Program-made: the position numbers and the translations under genes | Part shown: positions 4,705 to 18,871 of the stretch, one piece after another | Layout of the letters: the number at the start of each line of letters is the position of its first letter | Numbering within the stretch: the first letter of the stretch is position 1 | Assembly (NCBI GenBank): GCA_947259165.1 | Contig: CAMYKY010000001.1 | Span: 1-64,000, forward strand | Source: an uncultured Acidobacteriota bacterium | Lineage (GTDB): Bacteria; Acidobacteriota; Vicinamibacteria; Marinacidobacterales; SMYC01 | Length of the DNA stretch: 64,000 nt | Reading direction: 5' to 3' | The notes under the pieces: generated by a model | Seen by the model: only the letters and a program-made list of their open reading frames with translations | Database searches by the model: none | What the model was told of the DNA's origin: nothing

Positions 4705-5688
4705 TCAAGCGCAAGCCGGACAGGGAGTTTGCCCACATACGACGCAGAGCCCTCGCCCGCAGGTCTGACAGCGCACCATGCAATTCGAGCAAAGAATGTG
4801 TTTCAAGCGACATTGCACGGCCTTGGTGTCGCGCGTACCGCAATGACTGCACACCCATCCGGCGTGGGCCAATGGAGCCGGTGCGACTTGGGCCGGTGAT
4901 GGGGCCGTCGCCGATACGGCGGCGGCAACTGCTGGCGTCGCTGCGGGACCCGTCGGGCCTGCGGCGCGTGGCGACGCGGTGACCGTCGCCACGACTTCGT
5001 TTCTGCCCGCCACTACTGGCGCCGTCGTTGTAAGCGCGGCTTGGGCGCACGCATCGCAGCTCGTCAACCCGCAGGAGAGACACAGAACCGAACCGCACAC
5101 CTTGCAATGAGCGACACAGTCGCCGCACAAGACGTGTCCGGTAGCACACCGCTCGAGCGGCTTACCTTTGGCACCGCAGTTAGAGCATTGGTCCGCTGTT
5201 TTAGCCTCGCGCTGCTCCGCGTTCGACAAATCGATAAAGAACTCTTCCTTTTCGATAGGTAGCCGATGCAAGTGCTCTTCTACCCATCGCGCAGCCTGGC
5301 CATTCAACGGGCTCTTGACGTTGTAGCTCTGAAACGCCAACATCTCCCCAACTCGCTGGATCATTTCGTCCAGCCGTTCGGCAGCGCTCCAGTGGTCACC
5401 GATGCAAACCGTGTGCGGTGCGATGTTCGGATGAAACACCGGAGTCAGCATACGACACACGGGTGCGTCGCGCGGATAGCTCCTCGGGAGCGTAATTTCG
5501 AGACGATGCTCCCGCGCCAAATCAATGCGCTCGCCTTGTTCCCTGAGCGAGCGCACGCGAATCACGAGTCGGTAACGATCGGGAGGGTTTCCGCTGACTC
5601 CCTCAACGTCGATTTTGGGATGCAGGTGTACGAGACGCTTCACCGCTTCGTAGTCTGACTGCAAACGCCGTAGCCGAAAGTTGCTCAT
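4705..5688 (-). CDS. E2 ubiquitin-conjugating-enzyme-like (UBC fold) protein with two C-terminal RING/treble-clef-like zinc modules
   Basis: SYPRDAPVCRMLTPVFHPNIAPHTVCIGDHWSAAERLDEMIQRVGEMLAFQSYNVKSPLNGQAARWV matches the canonical E2 pattern (HPN motif, catalytic Cys95 codon at 5404-5406). The C-terminus has two Cys-rich blocks, CSNCGAKGKPLERCATGHVLCGDCVAHCKVCG... and CSHCGTRDTKAVQCRLKHILCSNCMVRCQTCG.... Confidence 0.88.
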   Translation of the reverse strand: MSNFRLRRLQSDYEAVKRLVHLHPKIDVEGVSGNPPDRYRLVIRVRSLREQGERIDLAREHRLEITLPRSYPRDAPVCRMLTPVFHPNIAPHTVCIGDHWSAAERLDEMIQRVGEMLAFQSYNVKSPLNGQAARWVEEHLHRLPIEKEEFFIDLSNAEQREAKTADQCSNCGAKGKPLERCATGHVLCGDCVAHCKVCGSVLCLSCGLTSCDACAQAALTTTAPVVAGRNEVVATVTASPRAAGPTGPAATPAVAAAVSATAPSPAQVAPAPLAHAGWVCSHCGTRDTKAVQCRLKHILCSNCMVRCQTCGRGLCVVCGQTPCPACA

Positions 5689-6926
5689 GGCTCTCCCCCA
5701 CCACCCAAAAGCATGAGCTCGTCCCCGTCCATCATCTCCACGATACGCTGCATCGTATTCGACGGCAGGCTAATGCCCTTCGGGCCTCCTTCTTCAAAAT
5801 GCGTCCAGGTGTTCAAGCCAACGAGACGACCGAGACTATCGAAAAGCCCGGTACCGCTGTCGCCCGGCTGCACGGGCAAGCTGGTGTAGATCAAACTGTA
5901 GTCGCCGGCCGGGGTGCGGTGTGACTCTCGCTTCAAGACTGTCCCGCGATGCACTGTCCAACCCGAACGAAACGGATTCGGGACGAACGAGACGTCGAAA
6001 CCCGCCTCGGCCGCGTCGGCGCTCGCTCGCACGGGAACCGGTTGCGGAGGATTTTCGATTGAGACGCGAACGACCGCGACGTCGAGCGGTGGCTCCGCCG
6101 TCCACACGACGTGCCCTTCGGCATGTCGCCCATCCGAAAAATACACCCAGACAGGGTGGGCGTCCTTCGGATCCCGAAACGCCGCAACGGACGCATAAGG
6201 CATCGCGACGTGCGAACAGGTCACGACGAACGCCGCGCCGCGCTCGCTCCGGATGACCGCCCCCGAACCCAAAGATACGCCGCGGGCATCACCGTCTCTG
6301 TCTGGAGCCATCAGCACCGTCGTCGCCGACATGATGGATTTCTCTTGCACGCTCAGGGTTTGGGGAGCCACTTCGAGCGGGGGCATCGCCATATGAGCCC
6401 ATCCCACGCCGCTCGCACCGCTCCAATGGAAGGCGCCCACGAGCATCGTGGTCGTGCCGACGACAATGGCGGTGAGGTTCACCAACAGTAGCGGGGCGTT
6501 CCGGAAAAGAGATCCTCGCTTCTGAGCAAGTGTGGACGCCGCGCCCACGACGAGTGCGAGGAGCCCGAGTCCGGCCGTCAGCAGAGACGTTCGCTGCAGC
6601 TCCGCAAAAAGCGGCGCGAGCGGCCCGAGCGGGCGAGCCGCCAGGAGGTCTCGCGCGTAATAGATTCCGCCGACGGCCAGGACGAGCGCGGTGATACCAG
6701 CGAACCAGTACTTGGCGGCCACGGCCACGCCTTCGCCACGAGTGAACTTCGACTCCGCTTCCGCGATGTCGTTTTGGCCAATGACTAGTTTCTCTCCGCG
6801 CCGCCCATACCGCTCCCACGCCTTCGAGGATTCGCACTGAGAACACGACTGGCCGGCGAGCAGCCGCACGGGCACCGGTGAGCGGCAATCAGGACAAAGC
6901 GTTCCCCCTACGCTGGTCATCGTCAC
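5685..6926 (-). CDS. Membrane-anchored trypsin-like (S1C) serine protease with N-terminal zinc ribbon
   Basis: CPDCRSP...CSQCES zinc ribbon; TM helices; triad blocks VTCSHVAMP (His), PPLDVAVVRV (Asp), QPGDSGTGLFD (Ser). ATGA overlap with the E2 gene. Confidence 0.85.
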   Translation of the reverse strand: MTMTSVGGTLCPDCRSPVPVRLLAGQSCSQCESSKAWERYGRRGEKLVIGQNDIAEAESKFTRGEGVAVAAKYWFAGITALVLAVGGIYYARDLLAARPLGPLAPLFAELQRTSLLTAGLGLLALVVGAASTLAQKRGSLFRNAPLLLVNLTAIVVGTTTMLVGAFHWSGASGVGWAHMAMPPLEVAPQTLSVQEKSIMSATTVLMAPDRDGDARGVSLGSGAVIRSERGAAFVVTCSHVAMPYASVAAFRDPKDAHPVWVYFSDGRHAEGHVVWTAEPPLDVAVVRVSIENPPQPVPVRASADAAEAGFDVSFVPNPFRSGWTVHRGTVLKRESHRTPAGDYSLIYTSLPVQPGDSGTGLFDSLGRLVGLNTWTHFEEGGPKGISLPSNTMQRIVEMMDGDELMLLGGGGEP

Positions 6927-6948
6927 GGATGTCCTACATTACCTGTGC

Positions 6949-7488
6949 CTAGAAACCGAGAGCGACAGCGATCGAGATCAACGCGTACGTCGCTCCCAGC
7001 GCTGCGGTACCGTAACCCATGGCGAGGTAAGTCCCCCCGGCACCCTCGAGTTTCTCCCTGTTGCTGTAGGCGAACCAACCGGCGATGGGGCCAACGATCG
7101 GTGCCAGTACGCCAGTGAGCGAAATCACGAAAAGCGTCACCATCATCCCGCGACTGCTCTTGATCGCCGCTTGTTTGGCGAGCCATTGGAAGTACTCGTC
7201 CTTCGTCATCGGGTCCGCATAGGGGAACTGGGCGCCGCAGGCGCACGCGAGAAAGCTCGAGCTCATTTCACTGCCACACGACGGGCACGTTTTGTTATCA
7301 CCCCACCCCGCGGCTTGAACGGCAACCGGATCGGCTTTCTCCGCGGGAGCGACTTTCGTGCACCCATAGGTCGCGCAACCACCGATGCCGTCCCAGCAAC
7401 TCGTATGATACTGCTGGTGACATTCTGTACACGTGCGCGTCGGGACGTCTTCCTGAATCAGAGTGTGACAAACGGAGCAACGATTCAT
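6949..7488 (-). CDS. Prokaryotic RING-finger (Prok-RING family 1-like) membrane protein
   Basis: CSVCHTLIQEDVPTRTCTECHQQYHTSCWDGIGGCATYGC binuclear Cys/His pattern, a second CPSCG...CACG ribbon, and C-terminal TM helices. Confidence 0.82.
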   Translation of the reverse strand: MNRCSVCHTLIQEDVPTRTCTECHQQYHTSCWDGIGGCATYGCTKVAPAEKADPVAVQAAGWGDNKTCPSCGSEMSSSFLACACGAQFPYADPMTKDEYFQWLAKQAAIKSSRGMMVTLFVISLTGVLAPIVGPIAGWFAYSNREKLEGAGGTYLAMGYGTAALGATYALISIAVALGF

Positions 7489-7566
7489 CCCAGCCCTCCA
7501 GCCGTCATGCGAGCGCCCCCCGAGCCAAGCGCCAAGTCTTTTTCCCGAGCGTGCATGGCGTCGCGA

Positions 7567-8139
7567 TCAAACCGAGAATTGGTAGAGCAGTCCAAGACCC
7601 CAGAAAACGAGCGCAACGATACCCAGCACCTTCCCCGTCGTCGCCAACCCGCCACCGCTCAGACTCGGATCGGCGGCGATCGCAGTTTTGGCCTCGTCGG
7701 CCTTTTGAATGGCGATCAGTCCGAAAATGACCCCACAGATGAAGATGCCGAGAACCCCGAACACGAGCGACGCAACCGCACCCGGTGCGGTCTCCGTTGG
7801 TCCGCGGTAGACACCGTCGGGAGACACCAGGCCTTTGTTGCAGTACTCGCAACGGATCGACACCGAGGGAATTTCGAGCTGACAATGCGGACAGTTCACC
7901 CGCCCTGGTGGCGGGCCGGGCGGGAGCTCGGGCAGCGGAGCGAGCTGCTTGAGCGGCGCGTTCACGCAACCGTCGGACGAACAACCACCTTGGGCATCCC
8001 AACAGTTGGAGTGATGTCCGATGGTGCAGCTTTCGCAAAGAGCTGCGTCGGCTCCGAAATTCAACACCTTCGAGCACCAGCCGCAAGGCTTGCCTTCGAG
8101 AACTCGATTGGTCTTGAGTCGATTGACTGTCTGTCCCAT
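7567..8139 (-). CDS. Prokaryotic RING-finger protein with DUF4190-like TM domain
   Basis: CGWCSKVLNFGADAALCESCTIGHHSNCWDAQGGCSSDGC, then CPHC...CEYC, then a GAVASLVFGVLGIFICGVIFGLIAI TM hairpin. Confidence 0.82.
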   Translation of the reverse strand: MGQTVNRLKTNRVLEGKPCGWCSKVLNFGADAALCESCTIGHHSNCWDAQGGCSSDGCVNAPLKQLAPLPELPPGPPPGRVNCPHCQLEIPSVSIRCEYCNKGLVSPDGVYRGPTETAPGAVASLVFGVLGIFICGVIFGLIAIQKADEAKTAIAADPSLSGGGLATTGKVLGIVALVFWGLGLLYQFSV

Positions 8140-8162
8140 CCGTTATCTCCCAGACTCAGTCC

Positions 8163-9494
8163 TCAGGCCGACCCGCCCATCTGTTTCGCACGCTCCTCGA
8201 ACTCGACCACGGTCGCGCCCAACGTCACCTGGTCTCCGGAGTTGAGGCGTTGCCTTCTGATGTTCTGTCCACTGATTTGCGTTCCCGAGCGGGTGTCGAG
8301 GTCTTCTATTTCGTAGCGGTTGCCGACGCGATGGATTGCGATGTGGTCGGGATCGATCCCCGCGTCTTTGAACAAATAGACATCCGCAGAGGGAGAGCTA
8401 CCGATGACGGTCGGCGATTTGTAGAGAACGAAGGATTTGCCGGCAAGCGGGCCCGTCCTAACTCGAAGCCACGCTTCTCTTGCGAGCTGATCGACGAGCG
8501 CGACGAAGAATCCAACACAGAGCCCGACCGCGATGAGACCCACGATACGGGACAACTCAGCGCCCGCAAATGCGGAGGGCTCCTGGAAGAATCGATCGAT
8601 GGGATCGAAGAACACACCTCCGAGCGCGCCGCCCAAGGCGCCACCAATCACGGAGTTGCGAAGTTGGCTCTTCGTGCTCCGAGCCAGGTTCATCCCGAGA
8701 CCGAGACCGGCTCCGATAAACGCCCACGCTCCGCTGCGACACGCTGAGTACAGAATGAATGTCACCGGAGGCATGTCCTGCACGGTCGTCCATGTCGCGG
8801 AATCATCCATCGACATCACATACTGCCCGATGCCCATCATGACGGCGGCGGGAACGAACGACAGGAACGCGAAGATTGCCGTGAGCAGAACGCCGATCAT
8901 GACGCGATCGATCATGCGCACCCAGTTCCGGGAGGTGACCCCTTCGGCGACCAGCATCGCGACCGCGATGAACACCGCCGTCACCGGAAACAACAGGATG
9001 CCGGACCAGCCGAAGCCGCTTTCGATCTGATCCCCCGTGTGCATGGCTTGGCTGGCCGTCGCCGGTCGCAACGCCCCCGCGAGCATCTCGTGGTCGGCCC
9101 AGGTCTCGCCGACAGCTTCGACGTACGTTCCTGGCTGGACTTCGTTGATATCGGTGAACGGAGGCTGACCATCGACTCCGGCCTCCATCGTGATCATGCC
9201 CGGAAAGACGATGACTTTGTTGTCCCCTACCGTGAGATTGATCGCATCACTCAACTCGGGCTCGGCAGGATCGTCGCCGAATTCGAAGGGCTCGCTGTTC
9301 ACTAGCAGGACTTCTCCGCCCACGAGCGAGAAATCGGCGAAGTAGGGCTCGATCAGAAGCCACGCCGAGAAGCTCGCGAGCAGTCCCGCGACCGGCAGAT
9401 AGAACAGACTCGACATCATGAGTCTGCGCATCGGCGACAGGTCCGGGGGCTCTTCGGCGACGACGCGAGTGCGAAGCTGACGTTCCTTCTTCAA
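8163..9494 (-). CDS. Polytopic membrane protein with C-terminal FHA domain
   Basis: Several TM segments, then PTVIGSSPSADVYL...DPDHIAIHRVGNRYEIEDLDTRSGTQISGQNI...GDQVTLGATVVEF (FHA). True start may lie upstream in frame. Confidence 0.82.
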   Translation of the reverse strand: MKKERQLRTRVVAEEPPDLSPMRRLMMSSLFYLPVAGLLASFSAWLLIEPYFADFSLVGGEVLLVNSEPFEFGDDPAEPELSDAINLTVGDNKVIVFPGMITMEAGVDGQPPFTDINEVQPGTYVEAVGETWADHEMLAGALRPATASQAMHTGDQIESGFGWSGILLFPVTAVFIAVAMLVAEGVTSRNWVRMIDRVMIGVLLTAIFAFLSFVPAAVMMGIGQYVMSMDDSATWTTVQDMPPVTFILYSACRSGAWAFIGAGLGLGMNLARSTKSQLRNSVIGGALGGALGGVFFDPIDRFFQEPSAFAGAELSRIVGLIAVGLCVGFFVALVDQLAREAWLRVRTGPLAGKSFVLYKSPTVIGSSPSADVYLFKDAGIDPDHIAIHRVGNRYEIEDLDTRSGTQISGQNIRRQRLNSGDQVTLGATVVEFEERAKQMGGSA

Positions 9495-9550
9495 CGCTTC
9501 GTCGACGTTCTTGTCGAAGAGCTCGTCGCGCTGAATGACGACTCGGTCGC

Positions 9551-10876
9551 TCAGGGAGCACCCCCATCGCGCAAACTGCTGCGCAGTTCCTCGTAACGAC
9601 GGGCGTTTCCGGGGTCGAGCGTCGCCGCGAGCTGGAGCAGGCGACGAGCGCGCTGGGTGTCTCCGGCTTTGCCGACATCTGCCGCGACCTCGGCGTACAG
9701 CTGACCGAGCGCGGCGCGCTGGTCCGAAACCATCCGCGTGACCTCCCGGGGAACGGCCGAGGATCTTTGGCCGAGTTGTTGCAGCAGTCTCAAAGAGCGA
9801 TCCGCCTGAAAATGGGTATCCCGGAGCTCTCTGAGCTTGCGCCGTCCTTCGACCAGCGGAACCATTGCCTCGTCACCAGAGCGCCCACTACTGAGCTGTG
9901 CGAGACCGAGGTCGACTGCCGCAAGCCCTTCATCGAAATCCCGGCGCAGAGACTCACCACCCCCCGCGGCCTCACGGACGAAGCTCAGAAGCTCCACGTT
10001 CAATCCACGAAGCAGCGCTTCTGCCGCGGCAGCTCGATCCCGGTCGAGTCGGATTCGAGCTTCTTGAATCACGTCGCGCAAACGGTATTGGGCGAACGAG
10101 AAACCAGCGAACCCTCCAATCAACAGGATGGCGAGCGCGGTGATGGCCATCGTCGCCCAATCCCATTCGCGCTCCGGCGGCGAAGGGTCGACCCTTGGTT
10201 GACTCATAGTCTGTTTCGCCGAGCTCGAGCCCGAGCTTGAACTTGTCGCGGTCCCTGCCGAGACCTTGGGCTCCGCCGACACGCGGGCGCCGTCCCAAAG
10301 GGTCTCCTCCTGCCCTACCCAGTATTGACGGCAGCGCGCAGGCTCGTTGTCACGCCAAACGAAGACACCGTGCTCATGACTCTTGGGATCGTAGACGAGC
10401 GCAATTTGATAGGGCAGATTGAAAAAACTCTGGTGAATAAACAGATCTCGATCCGACAAGAAAATGCCGAAACCGGGGTGTGTGTGGTACCAACCGACGA
10501 TCTTCTTGTCTTTATGCTTCGATTCCAATTCTTTGTGGATGTAATCCCAGGTGTCTTGAGTAAAGGTGAGCTCGGTTCCCTTTTCTTCCGCGTACAGCGC
10601 GTCGATGGTCGCATCCACTTTGAGAAACGGCCCGCTCTTGTCCTTGTGAATCTTCCCGACGAGCACGCCGCCGATTTCGCGAGTGAGATCGGCGTCTCCA
10701 CGTTCGGTCGCGCGATCGAAAGCGTCCTCGGAAATGTAGATCCGAAACCCGTGCCGAACGCTGGGAAAAGTCTCTTTCGAGAGCTCTTTCGCGTCGATGG
10801 CACGGGTATCAAGTCCGTTCAAAACCGCCTCCCATCTCTTCAGGAACTGACAAGGGCCCCAAGACCAAGGGTGCAT
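9551..10876 (-). CDS. JAB/MPN (JAMM) metallopeptidase with TM segment and C-terminal helical region
   Basis: EIGGVLVGKI...GWYHTHPGFGIFLSDRD JAMM motif (His-x-His codons at 10477-10485); TM WATMAITALAILLIGGFAGFSFA. Start uncertain; overlaps the E1 3' end. Confidence 0.87.
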   Translation of the reverse strand: MHPWSWGPCQFLKRWEAVLNGLDTRAIDAKELSKETFPSVRHGFRIYISEDAFDRATERGDADLTREIGGVLVGKIHKDKSGPFLKVDATIDALYAEEKGTELTFTQDTWDYIHKELESKHKDKKIVGWYHTHPGFGIFLSDRDLFIHQSFFNLPYQIALVYDPKSHEHGVFVWRDNEPARCRQYWVGQEETLWDGARVSAEPKVSAGTATSSSSGSSSAKQTMSQPRVDPSPPEREWDWATMAITALAILLIGGFAGFSFAQYRLRDVIQEARIRLDRDRAAAAEALLRGLNVELLSFVREAAGGGESLRRDFDEGLAAVDLGLAQLSSGRSGDEAMVPLVEGRRKLRELRDTHFQADRSLRLLQQLGQRSSAVPREVTRMVSDQRAALGQLYAEVAADVGKAGDTQRARRLLQLAATLDPGNARRYEELRSSLRDGGAP

Positions 10877-12038
10877 CGCCGTCGAAAAGCCACGCTCGCT
10901 GATCGTCGAGTCCTTGGCGCGCGACGATGACGTCGAACAACGGAAGACCGGCCTGTTGCGGAGTTCGAGATAAATCGACAACTCCGTCTCTGCATATCGA
11001 CGAGGCGAACTCGACGCCGCGATGGGCGCGGCACTTCGGGCACGCCGCGTCTTTCTCACCGATTTCGCCGAGGACTTGGTAACGCGGCTCGCTCGTCCCG
11101 CAGCTTCCGCACTCGAGCGACACGACGATGTCACGACTGAGATCCAAAACCGCACCAGCTCCCAACTCGCCCTCGGCACGTTCGAGAAGCTCTTCGAAGG
11201 TCACGGCGTCACTTGCCAGTCCGAGTGGTGTGATCGGTCCCAAGTTCTCGTGACCGGGACACTCGTCACGACGCGGGTATCTTACCCGGCTGATATCGCC
11301 CCAGAGCCCGTTGACATGGAGTCCCTCGGAAACGAGCGCGGGTTGACCGTGCAGCACCTTGATCGCTTCTTGCACTTCGAGCGCCGCTACGAGTGAAGCC
11401 GCGACGGCGGTCGTGGGCACGTGTCCGGACTCAACGATGTCCCGCGCAAGCATTGCGCACGAACGACGCTCCGCCACGAGCTTCCGATCCGTTTCGTTCA
11501 TCGTGCACTCGTAGCAGGACCCCTTCGCCGGATCGAATACGCGCGCGATTCCCGCCAAACCCTCGATCGCACCATCGACCCAAACACGACCGGTCGCCGC
11601 GCTCGCGCTGTTTGCAAAGATGCGTGCCTCGCGATTGTCGAGACCGCAGATGACGACGTCCGCCCAGAGAAAAACGCCTAGCCCCGCCTTGTGGTTGAGA
11701 TTGTCGACTCGTGGGTGTGCGCACACGTCGGGGTTGAGCTCCCGCATGCGCTTCACCGCGACCGTCGCCTTCGCGCCACCTTGGTCTTCGTCGCGAAACA
11801 AGACTCCACGTGACAGATTGCTTTGCTCGATGATGTCCATGTCGTAGACCAGCACTTCGCCGATTCCGGTCAACGACAAAATCTTCAAGATCTCGTTTCC
11901 GAGAGCACCCGCCCCGATCACGAGAACGCGTGCCGATCGGATTTTTTCCTGGTCCCACCACGTGATGAGCTCCTGACGGTCGTAGCGACCACCACCGTCA
12001 CGTCCGAGAAGCTCGTCGTGCGAGAGCTTCATGTCCAT
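10809..12038 (-). CDS. E1-like ubiquitin-activating (ThiF-fold) enzyme
   Basis: RVLVIGAGALGNEILKILSLTGIGEVLVYDMDIIEQSNLSRGVLFRDEDQGGAKATVA, VVICGLDNREAR, putative catalytic Cys194 in RRSCAMLARD (codon 11457-11459). TAATG overlap with the Ubl gene. Confidence 0.9.
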   Translation of the reverse strand: MDMKLSHDELLGRDGGGRYDRQELITWWDQEKIRSARVLVIGAGALGNEILKILSLTGIGEVLVYDMDIIEQSNLSRGVLFRDEDQGGAKATVAVKRMRELNPDVCAHPRVDNLNHKAGLGVFLWADVVICGLDNREARIFANSASAATGRVWVDGAIEGLAGIARVFDPAKGSCYECTMNETDRKLVAERRSCAMLARDIVESGHVPTTAVAASLVAALEVQEAIKVLHGQPALVSEGLHVNGLWGDISRVRYPRRDECPGHENLGPITPLGLASDAVTFEELLERAEGELGAGAVLDLSRDIVVSLECGSCGTSEPRYQVLGEIGEKDAACPKCRAHRGVEFASSICRDGVVDLSRTPQQAGLPLFDVIVARQGLDDQRAWLFDGDAPLVLGPLSVPEEMGGGFERT

Positions 12039-12313
12039 TAGACGCTGCCGGCGGTGATCTCGGGCTGGATTCGCATCACATCACCGTTGGTCACCTGCTG
12101 GTCGGCGAGGGATTTGTCATCGAGCAACTGGATCCCGAGCCGGCGATGGTGAAACTTATAGCTCATCAACTGACCGTCGGGACTGTGCTTGGGAAGATGG
12201 AGCTTGTCGGCGAGAACGAGCAGGATGCGATCTACCGTAACGTCGTCGGGCACTTCGACCTCGACCCGCTTGTTCCCGGTGGCATCCCAGACTTCCAGGT
12301 TGACATCACCCAT
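12038..12313 (-). CDS. Ubiquitin-like (YukD/EsaB-like beta-grasp) protein, 91 aa
   Basis: MGDVNLEVWDATGNKRVEVEVPDDVTVDRILLVLADKLHLPKHSPDGQLMSYKFHHRRLGIQLLDDKSLADQQVTNGDVMRIQPEITAGSV; beta-grasp-like pattern, lies directly before the E1 gene. Confidence 0.78.
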   Translation of the reverse strand: MGDVNLEVWDATGNKRVEVEVPDDVTVDRILLVLADKLHLPKHSPDGQLMSYKFHHRRLGIQLLDDKSLADQQVTNGDVMRIQPEITAGSV

Positions 12314-12430
12314 GGACAGGACTCCAGAAGACGGAAGGTTTTGTGAAACCAGAGCGTTGATCAATTCTCGCGGACAGCTCCCAGGCTGTCAACACATCAG
12401 CTCTCTCTTACCACGGAGACAGCGGCGAAA

Positions 12431-14311
12431 TTACGGGGTGACGACGGCGATTAGCTCGGGGCCGTCCAGGACCTGACCTTCTTCGACGAGAATGGTGTCA
12501 ACGCGGCCTTCGATCGGGGAGTGGATTTCTAGTTGCATTTTCATCGATTCTACGACGGCGAGGACTTGGCCTTCTTCGACGGAGGTGCCTTCTTCGATGC
12601 GGAGCTCGAGCACTTTGCCCGCCATGGGGGCTCGGACTTCGCCGTCGCTGGCAGCAAGCTTGATGCGGCGGTGGCTCAGCGCTCGCGGATCTTCCAGCCG
12701 GAGGGTCTCGCCCTGCACGGTGAGCGCCATTGCGGTCGCGTCGAGGACCGTCGCCACGCCTTCGACGGGATGAGGGAGGTCCGGTCCCGTCAGGACGACG
12801 TCACCCGACGAAAGCTCGATGTCGACATCGATCGCCGGACGCTCCATGGCGCTTCCAACTCGTGCGACGTGGTTACCCTGTTCTCTAAAGCGTGCGGCGG
12901 AGCGTGTTTCCGGGATGCTCGCTCGTAGCGCCAACGACAACTGTTCGCGGAACCCCGCCGTCTGAAGACGCGCCTCCAGTGTTTCCGGTAGAAGCGAGCG
13001 ATTGAGCTCGTCGAGATGGGCCCCAATCCATGAGGTCGAAAACGCCCCGGAACGAAAATCGGGATGACGGATCACGGATTGCAGAAACGGCAGGTTCGTT
13101 ACAACGCCGTGCACGACCATCACCGCGAGAGCAGCGTCGAGGATTTCGAGCGCGTCCTCGCGAGTTGCACCGACGGCAATCACCTTCGCGATCATCGAAT
13201 CGAACTGCGCGCGCACGAAGCCGCCCTCGGCAACGCCGGAGTCGACGCGAATTCCCGCGCTGCTCGGCTCGCGGTAGCGGCGAAGTGGCCCCGGCGTCGG
13301 CAAGAAGTCCGCTCGAGGGTCTTCCGCAAGCACCCGCGCCTCGATAGCCCACCGGCTGGGCTGAAGCGATTCGAGACGCGAAGGCCAATCACCCTCGGCG
13401 AGCTCGAGTTGTGCGGCCACCAGATCCACGTTGTAAACCGCTTCCGTCACCGGATGCTCGACTTGAAGGCGCGTGTTCACTTCAAGGAAATAGAATTTGT
13501 CATCGGTATCGAGCAGGAACTCCACCGTTCCCGCGCCACGGTATTGCGTCTTCTCGACGAGTCGAAGCGCCGCGGTGCTCATCCGCTCTCGCAGCGCGCC
13601 GCCAACAACGGGACTCGGCGACTCTTCGATTACTTTCTGGTAGCGACGCTGCATCGAGCATTCGCGCTCACCGAGCGCGACGCCCCCGCCGATACCATCG
13701 CCAAAGACTTGTATCTCGATGTGACGCGGTGCGGCCAGGTACCGTTCCACGAACACCGTCGGGTCTCCGAAGCCGGCCTTCGCCTCATCCGAGGCCCGCG
13801 CGAGCGCGGCCGGAAGTTGTGCGTAGGTTTCAACGATGCGCATCCCCCGGCCGCCACCACCGCCGGCCGCCTTCACGAGATACGGCGGCTCGATGCCCTT
13901 GTCCACGAGCTCCTCGAGCTCATCGGAACGAACGGACGGGAGCGTTGCTACGCCCGCGGCTTCAGCGATCGCCTTCGCGCTCTCTTTGTTCCCGAGACGC
14001 TCCATCGATTCCGGAGTTGGGCCAACGAAGGTGATCCCGACTTCTTGGATTTTTCGCGCGAATTCCGCATTCTCCGACAAGAAACCGTAGCCTGGATGCA
14101 GCAAATCGGCTCCCCAAGCGTTCGCCGCCGCCACGATCTCTCCGGCATCGAGAAAGCTCGAGACTTCGACCACGTCGTCCGCTTCCAAGCGCACCAAAGC
14201 ATCAGCATCCTCCGGCGTCGAGACGACGGCGACGAGATAGCCTCTCTCGCGCGCGGAGCGCAGAATGCGCCGCGCGATCTCTCCCCGGTTTGCGATGACG
14301 AGCTTTTTCAC
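12431..14311 (-). CDS. Biotin-dependent acyl-CoA carboxylase alpha subunit (methylcrotonyl/geranyl-CoA carboxylase type)
   Basis: KKLVIANRGEIARRIL...HPGYGFLSENAEFA...ESMKMQ biotinyl motif. GTG start; the ORF caller's upstream extension is spurious. Confidence 0.9.
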   Translation of the reverse strand: MKKLVIANRGEIARRILRSARERGYLVAVVSTPEDADALVRLEADDVVEVSSFLDAGEIVAAANAWGADLLHPGYGFLSENAEFARKIQEVGITFVGPTPESMERLGNKESAKAIAEAAGVATLPSVRSDELEELVDKGIEPPYLVKAAGGGGGRGMRIVETYAQLPAALARASDEAKAGFGDPTVFVERYLAAPRHIEIQVFGDGIGGGVALGERECSMQRRYQKVIEESPSPVVGGALRERMSTAALRLVEKTQYRGAGTVEFLLDTDDKFYFLEVNTRLQVEHPVTEAVYNVDLVAAQLELAEGDWPSRLESLQPSRWAIEARVLAEDPRADFLPTPGPLRRYREPSSAGIRVDSGVAEGGFVRAQFDSMIAKVIAVGATREDALEILDAALAVMVVHGVVTNLPFLQSVIRHPDFRSGAFSTSWIGAHLDELNRSLLPETLEARLQTAGFREQLSLALRASIPETRSAARFREQGNHVARVGSAMERPAIDVDIELSSGDVVLTGPDLPHPVEGVATVLDATAMALTVQGETLRLEDPRALSHRRIKLAASDGEVRAPMAGKVLELRIEEGTSVEEGQVLAVVESMKMQLEIHSPIEGRVDTILVEEGQVLDGPELIAVVTP

Positions 14312-15156
14312 GTGACCTGTTTCTTTCGAAGAAGGGCGACGCGAGCCGCCCATGCGGGGGGCGCCTTGGCAAAGAACGCCTCGAGCCCCATCCGGCCCTC
14401 CCGAGAACACCGCGCTTCGGCGATTTGGTGAGCGGTGAACTCGAGAAGCTCGGGACCAGGAAGCGGCAACGCTCGCTTGATGAGCGCCTTGGTACGCCGT
14501 GCCGCTTCGGGTCCCGCCGCCAGAAAATCGAGCACCACATCCTGCAGGGTCGCCGCACGCTTCGACGGCAGTGTGACTTGTTGCACGAGTCCGATCTCTT
14601 TCGCCTCGGACGCGAGCACGCGACGGCCCGTGAGCATCATCGGCGCGGCATTCGCGAGCCCGATCTTGCGAATGATGTAAGGGCTGATGACGCCGGGAAC
14701 AATCCCGAGCAACACCTCCGACGTGGCGAAGACGGTGCCCTCGTCCGCAAGGGCATAGTCCGCGCACACGCAAAGCCCTAGTCCACCACCGATCGCGGCT
14801 CCCTGAATGACGGCGATGATCGGCGTCGGAAAGTCGGCGAGCACATAAAACAGACGCGCGAGCGTCGTCGCATCTTCCGCGCTCTCTGCGACGGTGCTCG
14901 CTGAAAGCCGCTTCATATAGCCGAGGTCGGCACCGGCGCTAAACACCTTACCGTCACCCTCGAGCAGCAGAACGCGCGTCTGCTGTTGTTCGGCGAGGTG
15001 GTCGAGCGCGGCGCGCAGTTCCGATATCATCGCTTCATCGAACGCGTTGCGCACGTCGGGCCGCGACAGCACGATTCGCTTCACACCCATCGACAGAGAT
15101 TCGACTCGCAGGGTCGTCGCCTCAGTAATGACCCGCTCGACAGGAAAATCCCTCAC
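14308..15156 (-). CDS. Enoyl-CoA hydratase/isomerase family (methylglutaconyl-CoA hydratase-like)
   Basis: SAGADLGYMKRL...AVIQGAAIGGGLGLCVCADYALA crotonase motifs, in a carboxylase cluster. Confidence 0.88.
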   Translation of the reverse strand: MRDFPVERVITEATTLRVESLSMGVKRIVLSRPDVRNAFDEAMISELRAALDHLAEQQQTRVLLLEGDGKVFSAGADLGYMKRLSASTVAESAEDATTLARLFYVLADFPTPIIAVIQGAAIGGGLGLCVCADYALADEGTVFATSEVLLGIVPGVISPYIIRKIGLANAAPMMLTGRRVLASEAKEIGLVQQVTLPSKRAATLQDVVLDFLAAGPEAARRTKALIKRALPLPGPELLEFTAHQIAEARCSREGRMGLEAFFAKAPPAWAARVALLRKKQVT

Positions 15157-17003
15157 GAGAGCTCCTTGGATGAAGGTTTGTCCGCAACGGCTATCGTCGC
15201 GAGCAGACCCGAAGGGATACGCACGCGACAACGTAGAAGCGCCTGAGAGTAGGTCTTGCCCTGCGCATCGGTGTAAAGGCTCACGGTGCCGCCGCCTCCG
15301 AGCGATTCATCGAGTAGAAAGTTGAGCGCGAAAAGATTGGGAACTAGATAACGATGCACTTCACCGTTGACGATGTCTTCGAACCACTGACGCACTCGCT
15401 CGCCGCTGACGTTGTTTCTCAGCCACACATAGCATGCTGCACTGCGGCCAATGAGCCCTATGTTCGCGGTGTCACCCTTATCGCCGCTACGAGCATGTGC
15501 GATCGCCATGAGCGGCACCTCGATCACATCCTCGTCAAGTGATTGGACGAGCGCATCGGGATGCGGGTCTTGGAGAGGTCGTACCGGCTCCGAGCGTCCT
15601 TCGGTCACCGGCCAGATCAGATTTTGTTTCGAGGCAACTTCGTTGCCGTCATCGTAAACCGCGAGCGTTGCCGGCGCATGCCCTTGCGGGATGAGGCTCG
15701 GCCAATACCGAACGACATTCGAGATCGGCGGCGCCCCTCCGGTCACGGCAACGCCTGCAGGCCCGCTGAGAATGAGACCCGGCAGAAGCTTGCGAAAGAT
15801 CTGTAGCTTGCGTTTGTCATGATCCCGAGCCGCGAGCCGCAAGAGAACCTCGCTGACGTGGTGCGCAGGCGTCAAAGAGCGGTGGGTGCTGTCGTCACCA
15901 ATGTATTCGGTGTGTCTCGCTTCGAACGCGCTCAAACCTTCACGCTCGAGCTCCGCCGTGAGCCGCGTCCAGAAAACGTTCGCGAACATCTCCGCCTTCG
16001 CGCGCGGGTCTGGGCCAGAAACGATCAACGCTCCCGAGGATTTGAACCCGTCGTCGAGCGCCGCGCTGACTTTGAGAAAGTCGGTTGGAGGCGCACCCTT
16101 GGCGCCAGCGATACGAACTCGATCGTCTCCGTCCGCCTCGAGCGTGATCGTCGTGAAATCGGCAATGCAGTCCGGGGTGATGTACACCTGAGGGTGGCCC
16201 ATCTCGTAGAGAAATTGCTCGCGCGCCGTCTGCAGCGACACGAGGCCACCCGAGCCGGGATGTTTCGTCAAGACAAACGATCCGTCGGGCTCGAACTCCA
16301 CAACGGGATAGCCGACATCGATGTAGCTCGGCACTTTCTCCCAGTCGGTGAAATTGCCTCCGGTCGCCTGCGCGCCGCACTCGATGAGATGGGAAGCGAC
16401 GATACCCTGCGCGAGACGATCGTAGTCCTCCGCATCCCAACCAAACTCATAAATGAGCGCGGCAAGGGTGATCCCCGTATCAGTAACGCGCCCCGAGAGT
16501 ACGATATCCGGATTTTCCTCGAGTGCCTCCACGACGGGCATCGCTCCAAAGTAGGCATTCGCCGAAAGAACTTTGTCGCGGTAGTCGTCGAGCGGCTCCC
16601 CTGTCTCCATGTTGTCGAGGGTGAGCTCATCTAGTTGCGGACGAACGTCATCCCCGCCGACGACCGCGACCTTGAGTGAGAGGCCACGTTTCACCGCGAC
16701 ACTGAACAGAGCGTCTGCACACGCCTTGGGATTGACTCCGCCGGCGTTGGTGATGAGCTTGATGCCGCGTTCGAGGATCTCCTCGAGCAACGGATCGATC
16801 TGGGCGATGAAATCCCTTGCGTAGCCCGCGGTGGGGTCACGAGCGAACTGCTTTTGCAGAATGCTCATAGTGATCTCGGCAAGAAAATCCATCGAGATGT
16901 AATCGATGGGGAGGTCACCGAGAACTTGGCGACGCATCGCATAGGGGTCGTCGCCCCAATAGCCACCGGCGTTGGCGATTCGAAGAGTTGATGATCTTGG
17001 CAT
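15153..17003 (-). CDS. AtuA/DUF1446 family protein (acyclic terpene utilisation AtuA-like)
   Basis: LRIANAGGYWGDDP...; HARSGDKGDTANIGLIGRS C-terminal domain. Start taken at MPRSSTLRIANAGG; the upstream 20 aa are repeat-derived. Confidence 0.85.
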   Translation of the reverse strand: MPRSSTLRIANAGGYWGDDPYAMRRQVLGDLPIDYISMDFLAEITMSILQKQFARDPTAGYARDFIAQIDPLLEEILERGIKLITNAGGVNPKACADALFSVAVKRGLSLKVAVVGGDDVRPQLDELTLDNMETGEPLDDYRDKVLSANAYFGAMPVVEALEENPDIVLSGRVTDTGITLAALIYEFGWDAEDYDRLAQGIVASHLIECGAQATGGNFTDWEKVPSYIDVGYPVVEFEPDGSFVLTKHPGSGGLVSLQTAREQFLYEMGHPQVYITPDCIADFTTITLEADGDDRVRIAGAKGAPPTDFLKVSAALDDGFKSSGALIVSGPDPRAKAEMFANVFWTRLTAELEREGLSAFEARHTEYIGDDSTHRSLTPAHHVSEVLLRLAARDHDKRKLQIFRKLLPGLILSGPAGVAVTGGAPPISNVVRYWPSLIPQGHAPATLAVYDDGNEVASKQNLIWPVTEGRSEPVRPLQDPHPDALVQSLDEDVIEVPLMAIAHARSGDKGDTANIGLIGRSAACYVWLRNNVSGERVRQWFEDIVNGEVHRYLVPNLFALNFLLDESLGGGGTVSLYTDAQGKTYSQALLRCRVRIPSGLLATIAVADKPSSKELS

Positions 17004-17133
17004 TGGCTTAGAGTTCCCGTGCTGGTTTTCGTTCCCGTTCCCGATTGCGTCTTTGTCTTTCATATCAGTACCTGACGATACGAGCTAGAGCTTTCCGCCA
17101 GGTCAGTGTTTTTCACGGTTTCATCTTCATCCG

Positions 17134-17189
17134 TTCGGGAACGGGAACGGGAACGGGAACGGGGACGGGAACGGGGACGGGGACGGGGC
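17134..17189. repeat. Short tandem GGGAAC/GGGGAC hexamer array
   Basis: cgggaacgggaacgggaacgggaacggggacgggaacggggacggggacgggg, with a short inverted counterpart gttcccgttcccg near 17031-17043. Confidence 0.85.
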
Positions 17190-17263
17190 CCGGCGGACTT
17201 TCGAAGTTCTTATCAACGTAGCCTTCATTTGGGTCAACAGCGATTTTCGGTAGCCATCCAGAT

Positions 17264-18871
<1,608 letters not shown>

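Follow-up and report, generated by a model that had tools for sequence, protein, structure and literature searches.

The window analysed here, a 64,000-nucleotide stretch from an uncultured Acidobacteriota bacterium (GenBank assembly GCA_947259165.1, contig CAMYKY010000001.1, positions 1 to 64,000 of the forward strand), carries an operon that probably encodes a bacterial ubiquitin-like conjugation pathway assembled on the inner face of the cytoplasmic membrane. We put the probability of this reading at about three in four; conjugation at the membrane is likely, and RING-assisted transfer is also likely, though less certain. Eight closely spaced minus-strand genes (12313..4705) encode, in order, a ubiquitin-like protein (Ubl), an activating enzyme (E1), a JAMM/JAB metallopeptidase, an FHA protein, two RING proteins (RING1 and RING2), a trypsin-like protease and a conjugating enzyme (E2) (Table 1). 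An initial annotation of the window had proposed such a compact, complete operon. All eight genes are real, the active sites are complete and both junctions it described are present: the Ubl stop and the E1 start share TAATG at 12038, and the protease stop and the E2 start share ATGA at 5688. For JAB, TTG 10822 is the most plausible start codon, which makes the gene run into the E1 end at 10809; the remaining intergenic gaps measure 22–78 bp. Scans of the window proteins with Pfam, NCBIfam and PADLOC returned the expected families. Catalytic residues are intact in E1, E2 and JAMM, active-site residues are invariant among homologues, and the Pfam families agree with conserved synteny on the completeness of the Ubl/E1/E2/JAB/RING set.

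The full set (trypsin-like protease with transmembrane (TM) segments, Ubl, E1, JAB/TM, FHA/TM, RING/TM and E2) recurs at loci L042, L043 and L045, which represent three other genera of the phylum, all from one family, and at L037, from a Syntrophomonas metagenome-assembled genome (Bacillota). Because the same families are co-located in four other genomes, chance grouping of the genes is excluded. The neighbourhood conservation that the initial annotation proposed to check therefore holds for five loci in two phyla, but it is patchy and does not extend to close relatives. The E1 proteins from the five loci group together (89/96; the grouping carries no formal star), Bacillota copy included, which together with the patchy spread suggests that the operon was disseminated by horizontal transfer. 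An E1 query against plasmids gave no match at 1e-30. Partial relatives elsewhere in the phylum combine E1, E2, Ubl and JAB with or without RING/FHA; the Ubl profile matches 17 and UQ_con 19 of the 396 phylum genomes. The genome-contig scan with a single E2 yielded just one relative, and the census beyond the phylum of the window was shallow.

The Ubl passes the Pfam YukD cut-off (5.6e-11; 43.5 bits versus 27 required), and its earlier description as YukD-like is correct in this respect, but the label understates the protein. The YukD domain stops at residue 81, and the polypeptide continues through PEITAG to an invariant glycine, Gly89, followed by a two-residue tail. In the PDB, a profile built from nine Ubls matches ubiquitin chains as well as the ubiquitin of Candidatus Caldiarchaeum subterraneum, with Gly89 aligned to ubiquitin Gly76; per-domain scores are modest, the very low E-values arising from repeated domains. 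Ubls adjoining these enzymes carry the conserved glycine and then zero or more variable residues (set off here by a slash): ITAG/SV in the window, ITAG/AR in L042, ITAG ending exactly at Gly in the two close homologues L043 and L045, ITAG/YLNSVM in L037, FVAG/SFQC in L040, IEAG/A in L008, IDAG in L073, IEAGG/C in L076, LEGG/LR in L041, TRGG/GLKWVHQKK in L053, TRGG/A in L074, NTRGG/RHRNYEL in L078 and longer tails after TRGG in L075 and L077. As read from these C-termini, an invariant glycine with a variable tail is what marks a pro-ubiquitin whose extension is cut back to a conjugatable glycine; the same pattern suggests that the JAB of the operon does this trimming. The pro-ubiquitin of C. 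subterraneum loses its nine-residue tail to an Rpn11/JAMM enzyme before activation, and E1/E2/RING transfer follows (PMC5654768).

The Pfam label, together with the placement of YukD in type VII loci by Iyer 2006 (PMC1779556), could also point to a Ubl acting non-covalently, like YukD/EsaB of type VII secretion, beside relic E1 and E2 enzymes. We consider this very improbable, as the ubiquitin-like invariant C-terminal glycine lies past the YukD domain and the E1, E2 and JAMM active sites are intact. In addition, no WXG100 protein, a type VII secretion marker, was found in the genome (about 84% complete), so that the reported lack of ESX/type VII genes holds genome-wide for WXG100. Two variations on the Ubl were also observed. 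Locus L046 has a Ubl gene with two Ubl domains, the second ending in EEIAG plus a tail, adjoining E1, E2, JAB, RING and FHA genes. In L075, L077 and L078 (two-contig genomes and kin), an NTRGG-ending Ubl lies beside E1, with E2 and JAB elsewhere in the genome; genome G237 exemplifies such split genes, with Ubl at C1:161584 and E2 at C1:699368.

The E1 (Pfam ThiF, 5e-47) possesses a putative catalytic cysteine, Cys194, that is invariant among homologues. Compared with the PDB, its profile ranks UBA7, UBA1, UBA2 and UBA3 first (best 2.6e-49), above MoeB (1.5e-34) and ThiF (6.4e-33); UBA7 and UBA1 each contain two domains matching the profile. Matches to ThiF/MoeB family models might hint at a sulfur-carrier or cofactor pathway of the ThiS/MoaD-ThiF/MoeB type. 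However, they fall far under the cut-offs of those models, and the operon has E2 and RING genes and no cofactor genes, making such a pathway scarcely credible here. The assignment to a ubiquitin pathway is preferred because the closest solved relatives are ubiquitin-pathway enzymes, not sulfur-carrier enzymes. Pfam gave no E1_UFD match in the C-terminal region of E1, where mostly weak zinc-ribbon matches were obtained.

The E2 (Pfam UQ_con, 4e-10) is closest by profile to Rad6/UBE2B in the PDB (1.1e-15) and conserves HPN (86–88) and Cys95. The best Foldseek matches of its medium-confidence model are all E2s (target TM-score about 0.6), recovering the UBC fold in line with the initial annotation. 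Its 165-residue C-terminal extension contains two copies of a 47-residue Cys-rich module (residues about 168–214 and 280–326) with 12 Cys/His positions. A single finger is weakly similar to GATA fingers, and no second copy of the module was found elsewhere in its own genome, in 59 relatives or in the homologous E2s recovered. The JAB protein (Pfam 6.7e-11) retains the JAMM residues E49, H113, H115, S123 and D126, all invariant, and carries a TM helix at residues 225–243; its profile matches Rpn11 (2.9e-19) and C. subterraneum Rpn11 (3.2e-17) in the PDB.

RING1 matches Prok-RING_1 above the cut-off (3.7e-7); RING2 is under it (6.3e-5), yet keeps the eight zinc ligands. Both are C4HC3 fingers with CxxxxC as the last pair, and their eight ligands, in cross-brace order, are all invariant. 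Prokaryotic RINGs are typically C4HC3 with a longer last ligand pair, according to a review (PMC11354881). Against the PDB, the RING profile scores best with the EL5 RING ligase (3.3e-5), and PHD fingers come next. This mixture, along with the CxxxxC end pair, would also be compatible with genuine conjugation in which E2 transfers the Ubl alone and the Prok-RINGs are structural zinc-finger membrane anchors; the homologous E1/E2/Ubl loci L041 and L053 have no RING within the region examined. We think this somewhat unlikely in view of the invariant ligands, the RING ligase as top single match, and the RING-like genes that accompany E1 and E2 in L044, L047, L048 and L050. These last four loci have diverged and contain genes for E1, E2, a double RING and FHA/TM, while Ubl and JAB are not recognisable within the region examined.

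TM segments are present by hydropathy in five of the eight proteins (JAB, FHA, RING1, RING2 and the protease), bearing out the statement that most members carry them; Ubl and E2 show none by the same measure, and the sole E1 signal is the Rossmann motif. Hydropathy and charge rules place the RING and FHA domains inside. Around the JAB TM helix, the charges are ambiguous in the window, and those of L045 fit a JAB domain on the inside. A cytosolic JAB domain is further indicated by a LysM-like segment, identified by sequence reading, after the TM helix of the Syntrophomonas homologue (L037). The FHA domain (Pfam 1.5e-11; GarA/OdhI by profile) and TM segments of the FHA protein are present as annotated, but the usual phosphothreonine-contact residues are missing. 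The contact residues GR, S and N are replaced in the window by GSSPSADV, DPDH and RSGT; FHA domains at all five loci lack the phosphothreonine-contacting arginine and serine, and the window copy also lacks the asparagine. Phospho-reading is therefore unlikely, and a phosphorylation-independent docking role appears more likely.

The protease (Trypsin_2, 3e-18, with additional HtrA/DegS model matches) has zinc-ribbon-like CxxC pairs at its N-terminus and an intact H239/D282/S357 triad, invariant among homologues. As in DegS, its trypsin-like domain is predicted to lie outside the cytoplasm, in the L045 and L037 homologues as well as in the window. Since this DegS/HtrA-like domain would lie outside, built-in deconjugation rests on JAB alone, and the protease is probably not a second deconjugase. 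The earlier picture of membrane-localised modification with built-in deconjugation is thus retained for the membrane anchoring and JAB; the protease would be outside and probably take no part in deconjugation.

From the identified parts, their catalytic residues, the Ubl C-terminal signature, co-conservation and the membrane segments, we infer the following reaction steps, topology, substrates and role. Membrane-anchored JAB would cut the two-residue Ubl tail, exposing Gly89, which E1 would adenylate and load as a thioester on Cys194 before passing the Ubl to Cys95 of E2. The C4HC3 RING membrane proteins, perhaps with the E2 C-terminal fingers, may deliver E2~Ubl to membrane targets, the Ubl being joined to target lysines at or in the membrane and later taken off by JAB. 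The multipass FHA protein could be a scaffold independent of phosphorylation, and the trypsin-like protease, on the outer side, might link the pathway to envelope damage or degrade the outer parts of marked proteins. Proteasomal degradation of tagged proteins was considered and is unsupported: no 20S proteasome was found in this incomplete genome, where the sole PF00227 gene is hslV beside hslU, and any degradation would therefore use other proteases. We hypothesize an envelope or membrane quality-control role. A more specific and decidedly unlikely proposal is that the operon is a bacterial equivalent of the quality control of membrane proteins in eukaryotes, with RING tagging of membrane proteins inside and a DegS-like protease outside; if true, a single operon would link tagging, its reversal and proteolysis across the membrane.

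Several points weigh against membrane-bound, RING-assisted conjugation. The window Ubl terminates in a single glycine (TAG) and not in GlyGly. The RING assignment draws on the zinc-ligand pattern and on weak profile matches that include PHD fingers, and only hydropathy and charge rules underlie the topology. The AlphaFold model of E1 (two sequences) is poor, with a mean predicted local distance difference test score of 42.6, and for this reason no UFD-like E2-docking domain is demonstrable. Finally, searches of 149 close relatives found no similar E1, only generic ThiF-level matches, and weak E2 matches; the operon was not found in these genomes and is therefore accessory. One genome of the same family, G001, has a small contig (L004) that carries JAB and a Ubl-E2 fusion.

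An antiphage function of the Bil/Bub sort, in which the Ubl would be conjugated to phage or host proteins upon infection, is possible but unlikely. Characterised bacterial operons of Ubl, E1, E2 and JAB (Bil) protect against phage, and for Bub, too, an immune role has been proposed (PMC13373217). The PADLOC E1-E2 and JAB models match our E1 and JAB weakly, and the patchy distribution of the operon can be counted for such a role. Directly downstream of the Ubl operon at L045 lies a match to IetA, from the Iet antiphage system (3.4e-145), followed by a gene for an 865-aa protein. Conversely, the window operon has carboxylase genes on one side and, further out, ruvABC, queA, glmM and glyA (named from sequence), which are housekeeping surroundings; PADLOC returned no strong match for the flanking genes tested at the window, L042 and L043. 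We also know of no Bil or Bub system with a mostly membrane-anchored set and an outside protease.

Burroughs, Iyer and Aravind reportedly predicted, in 2011, RING E3s and the conjugation of YukD-like Ubls by E1/E2/JAB/Prok-RING systems, and the operon thus belongs to a kind that had been predicted. It has the same component list and the same predicted conjugation: a YukD-like Ubl, E1, UBC-type E2, JAB and Prok-RING occur together, the Prok-RING being of the Prok-RING_1 family, and the conjugatable glycine is present. The FHA/TM and trypsin/TM genes may already be among the neighbourhoods noted then. No experimental study of this membrane-bound operon type was found in literature searches. To our knowledge, RING ligases are absent from the bacterial Ubl pathways worked out so far (Bil, Bub and CBASS Cap2). 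A compact operon combining all three ligase activities with a deconjugase and membrane localisation could reveal whether RING-type ubiquitin ligation exists and functions in bacteria, and which purposes Ubl tagging serves beyond phage defence. What is new here is the Gly/tail evidence from the Ubl C-terminus, the synteny of five loci from two phyla, the corrections concerning the FHA protein and the protease, and the fusion of E2 to zinc fingers.

Ubl/E1/E2/JAB operons were described in Iyer 2006 (PMC1779556). The initial annotation rightly credited Aravind and co-workers with the class. Bacterial Ubl systems of the tri-ligase type, RING E3s included, were reported in eLife in 2020 (PMC7159879, which like PMC11354881 cites Burroughs 2011), and some of them are coupled to Pup genes. 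The FtsH-ternary systems among them share JAB, E1, E2, a prokaryotic RING and a Ubl with the window operon, but their Ubl is fused to E2 and EAD1, and their FtsH, MoxR/vWA and caspase partners are absent from it. Loci L008 and L073, which come from two genomes of the window's phylum, each have a gene of the Pup-ligase/Dop family (Pfam 8.6e-80 and 7.4e-88, respectively) within a few kb of Ubl, E2 and JAB, suggesting that Ubl and Pup pathways may occur together there. The C. subterraneum operon (PMC5654768, PMC6043591), which has been reconstituted in vitro, shares a tailed pro-Ubl, Rpn11/JAMM processing, E1, E2 and a small RING; unlike the window operon, it is archaeal, soluble, uses a GlyGly terminus and lacks FHA and trypsin-like proteins. 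Bil shares Ubl, E1, E2 and a JAB that exposes a reactive C-terminal glycine (PMC11354881), but is antiphage, has a BilA with two Ubl domains and is without RING, FHA and membrane protease. The window operon falls outside Bil, with a single-domain 91-aa Ubl, eight genes versus the four of BilABCD, and a PADLOC BilD match of only 1.9e-5. Bub (Gong 2025 and Ye 2026, cited in PMC13373217) is likewise an operon of a bacterial Ubl, E1, E2 and protease, and is described as a diverged pathway.

Table 1. Coordinates of the operon genes and of other features mentioned in the text
Sequence	Feature	Coordinates	With stop	Strand	Description
Window	Ubl	12041..12313	to 12038	-	91 aa, YukD-type beta-grasp
Window	E1	10812..12038	to 10809	-	409 aa; adenylation domain, Cys194, Zn-binding Cys pairs, C-terminal domain with zinc ribbon
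Window	JAMM/JAB metallopeptidase	9554..10822	to 9551	-	one TM helix and C-terminal region; start inferred
Window	FHA protein	8166..9494	to 8163	-	multipass, glycine-rich TM region, C-terminal FHA domain
Window	RING1	7570..8139	to 7567	-	Prok-RING_1 (C4HC3), two C-terminal TM helices (DUF4190-like)
Window	RING2	6952..7488	to 6949	-	second Prok-RING (C4HC3), two TM helices
Window	Protease	5688..6926	to 5685	-	zinc-ribbon-like N-terminus, three TM helices, C-terminal trypsin-like domain
Window	E2	4708..5688	to 4705	-	UBC residues 1-150, then two 47-residue zinc-finger modules
Window	E2 C-terminal extension	4708-5205			two Cys-rich modules
Window	Carboxylase-side genes	12434-18871		-	biotin carboxylase, enoyl-CoA hydratase-like, AtuA-like, carboxyltransferase
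L008	Pup-ligase/Dop family gene	11345-12898
L073	Pup-ligase/Dop family gene	12370-14010
L045	IetA match and 865-aa gene	9251-12875
L046	Two-domain Ubl gene	7861-8610

Upstream of the operon, about 118 bp off and on the same strand, lies the biotin carboxylase gene. The genes on this side resemble those of acyclic terpene or leucine breakdown and are unrelated to the Ubl operon.

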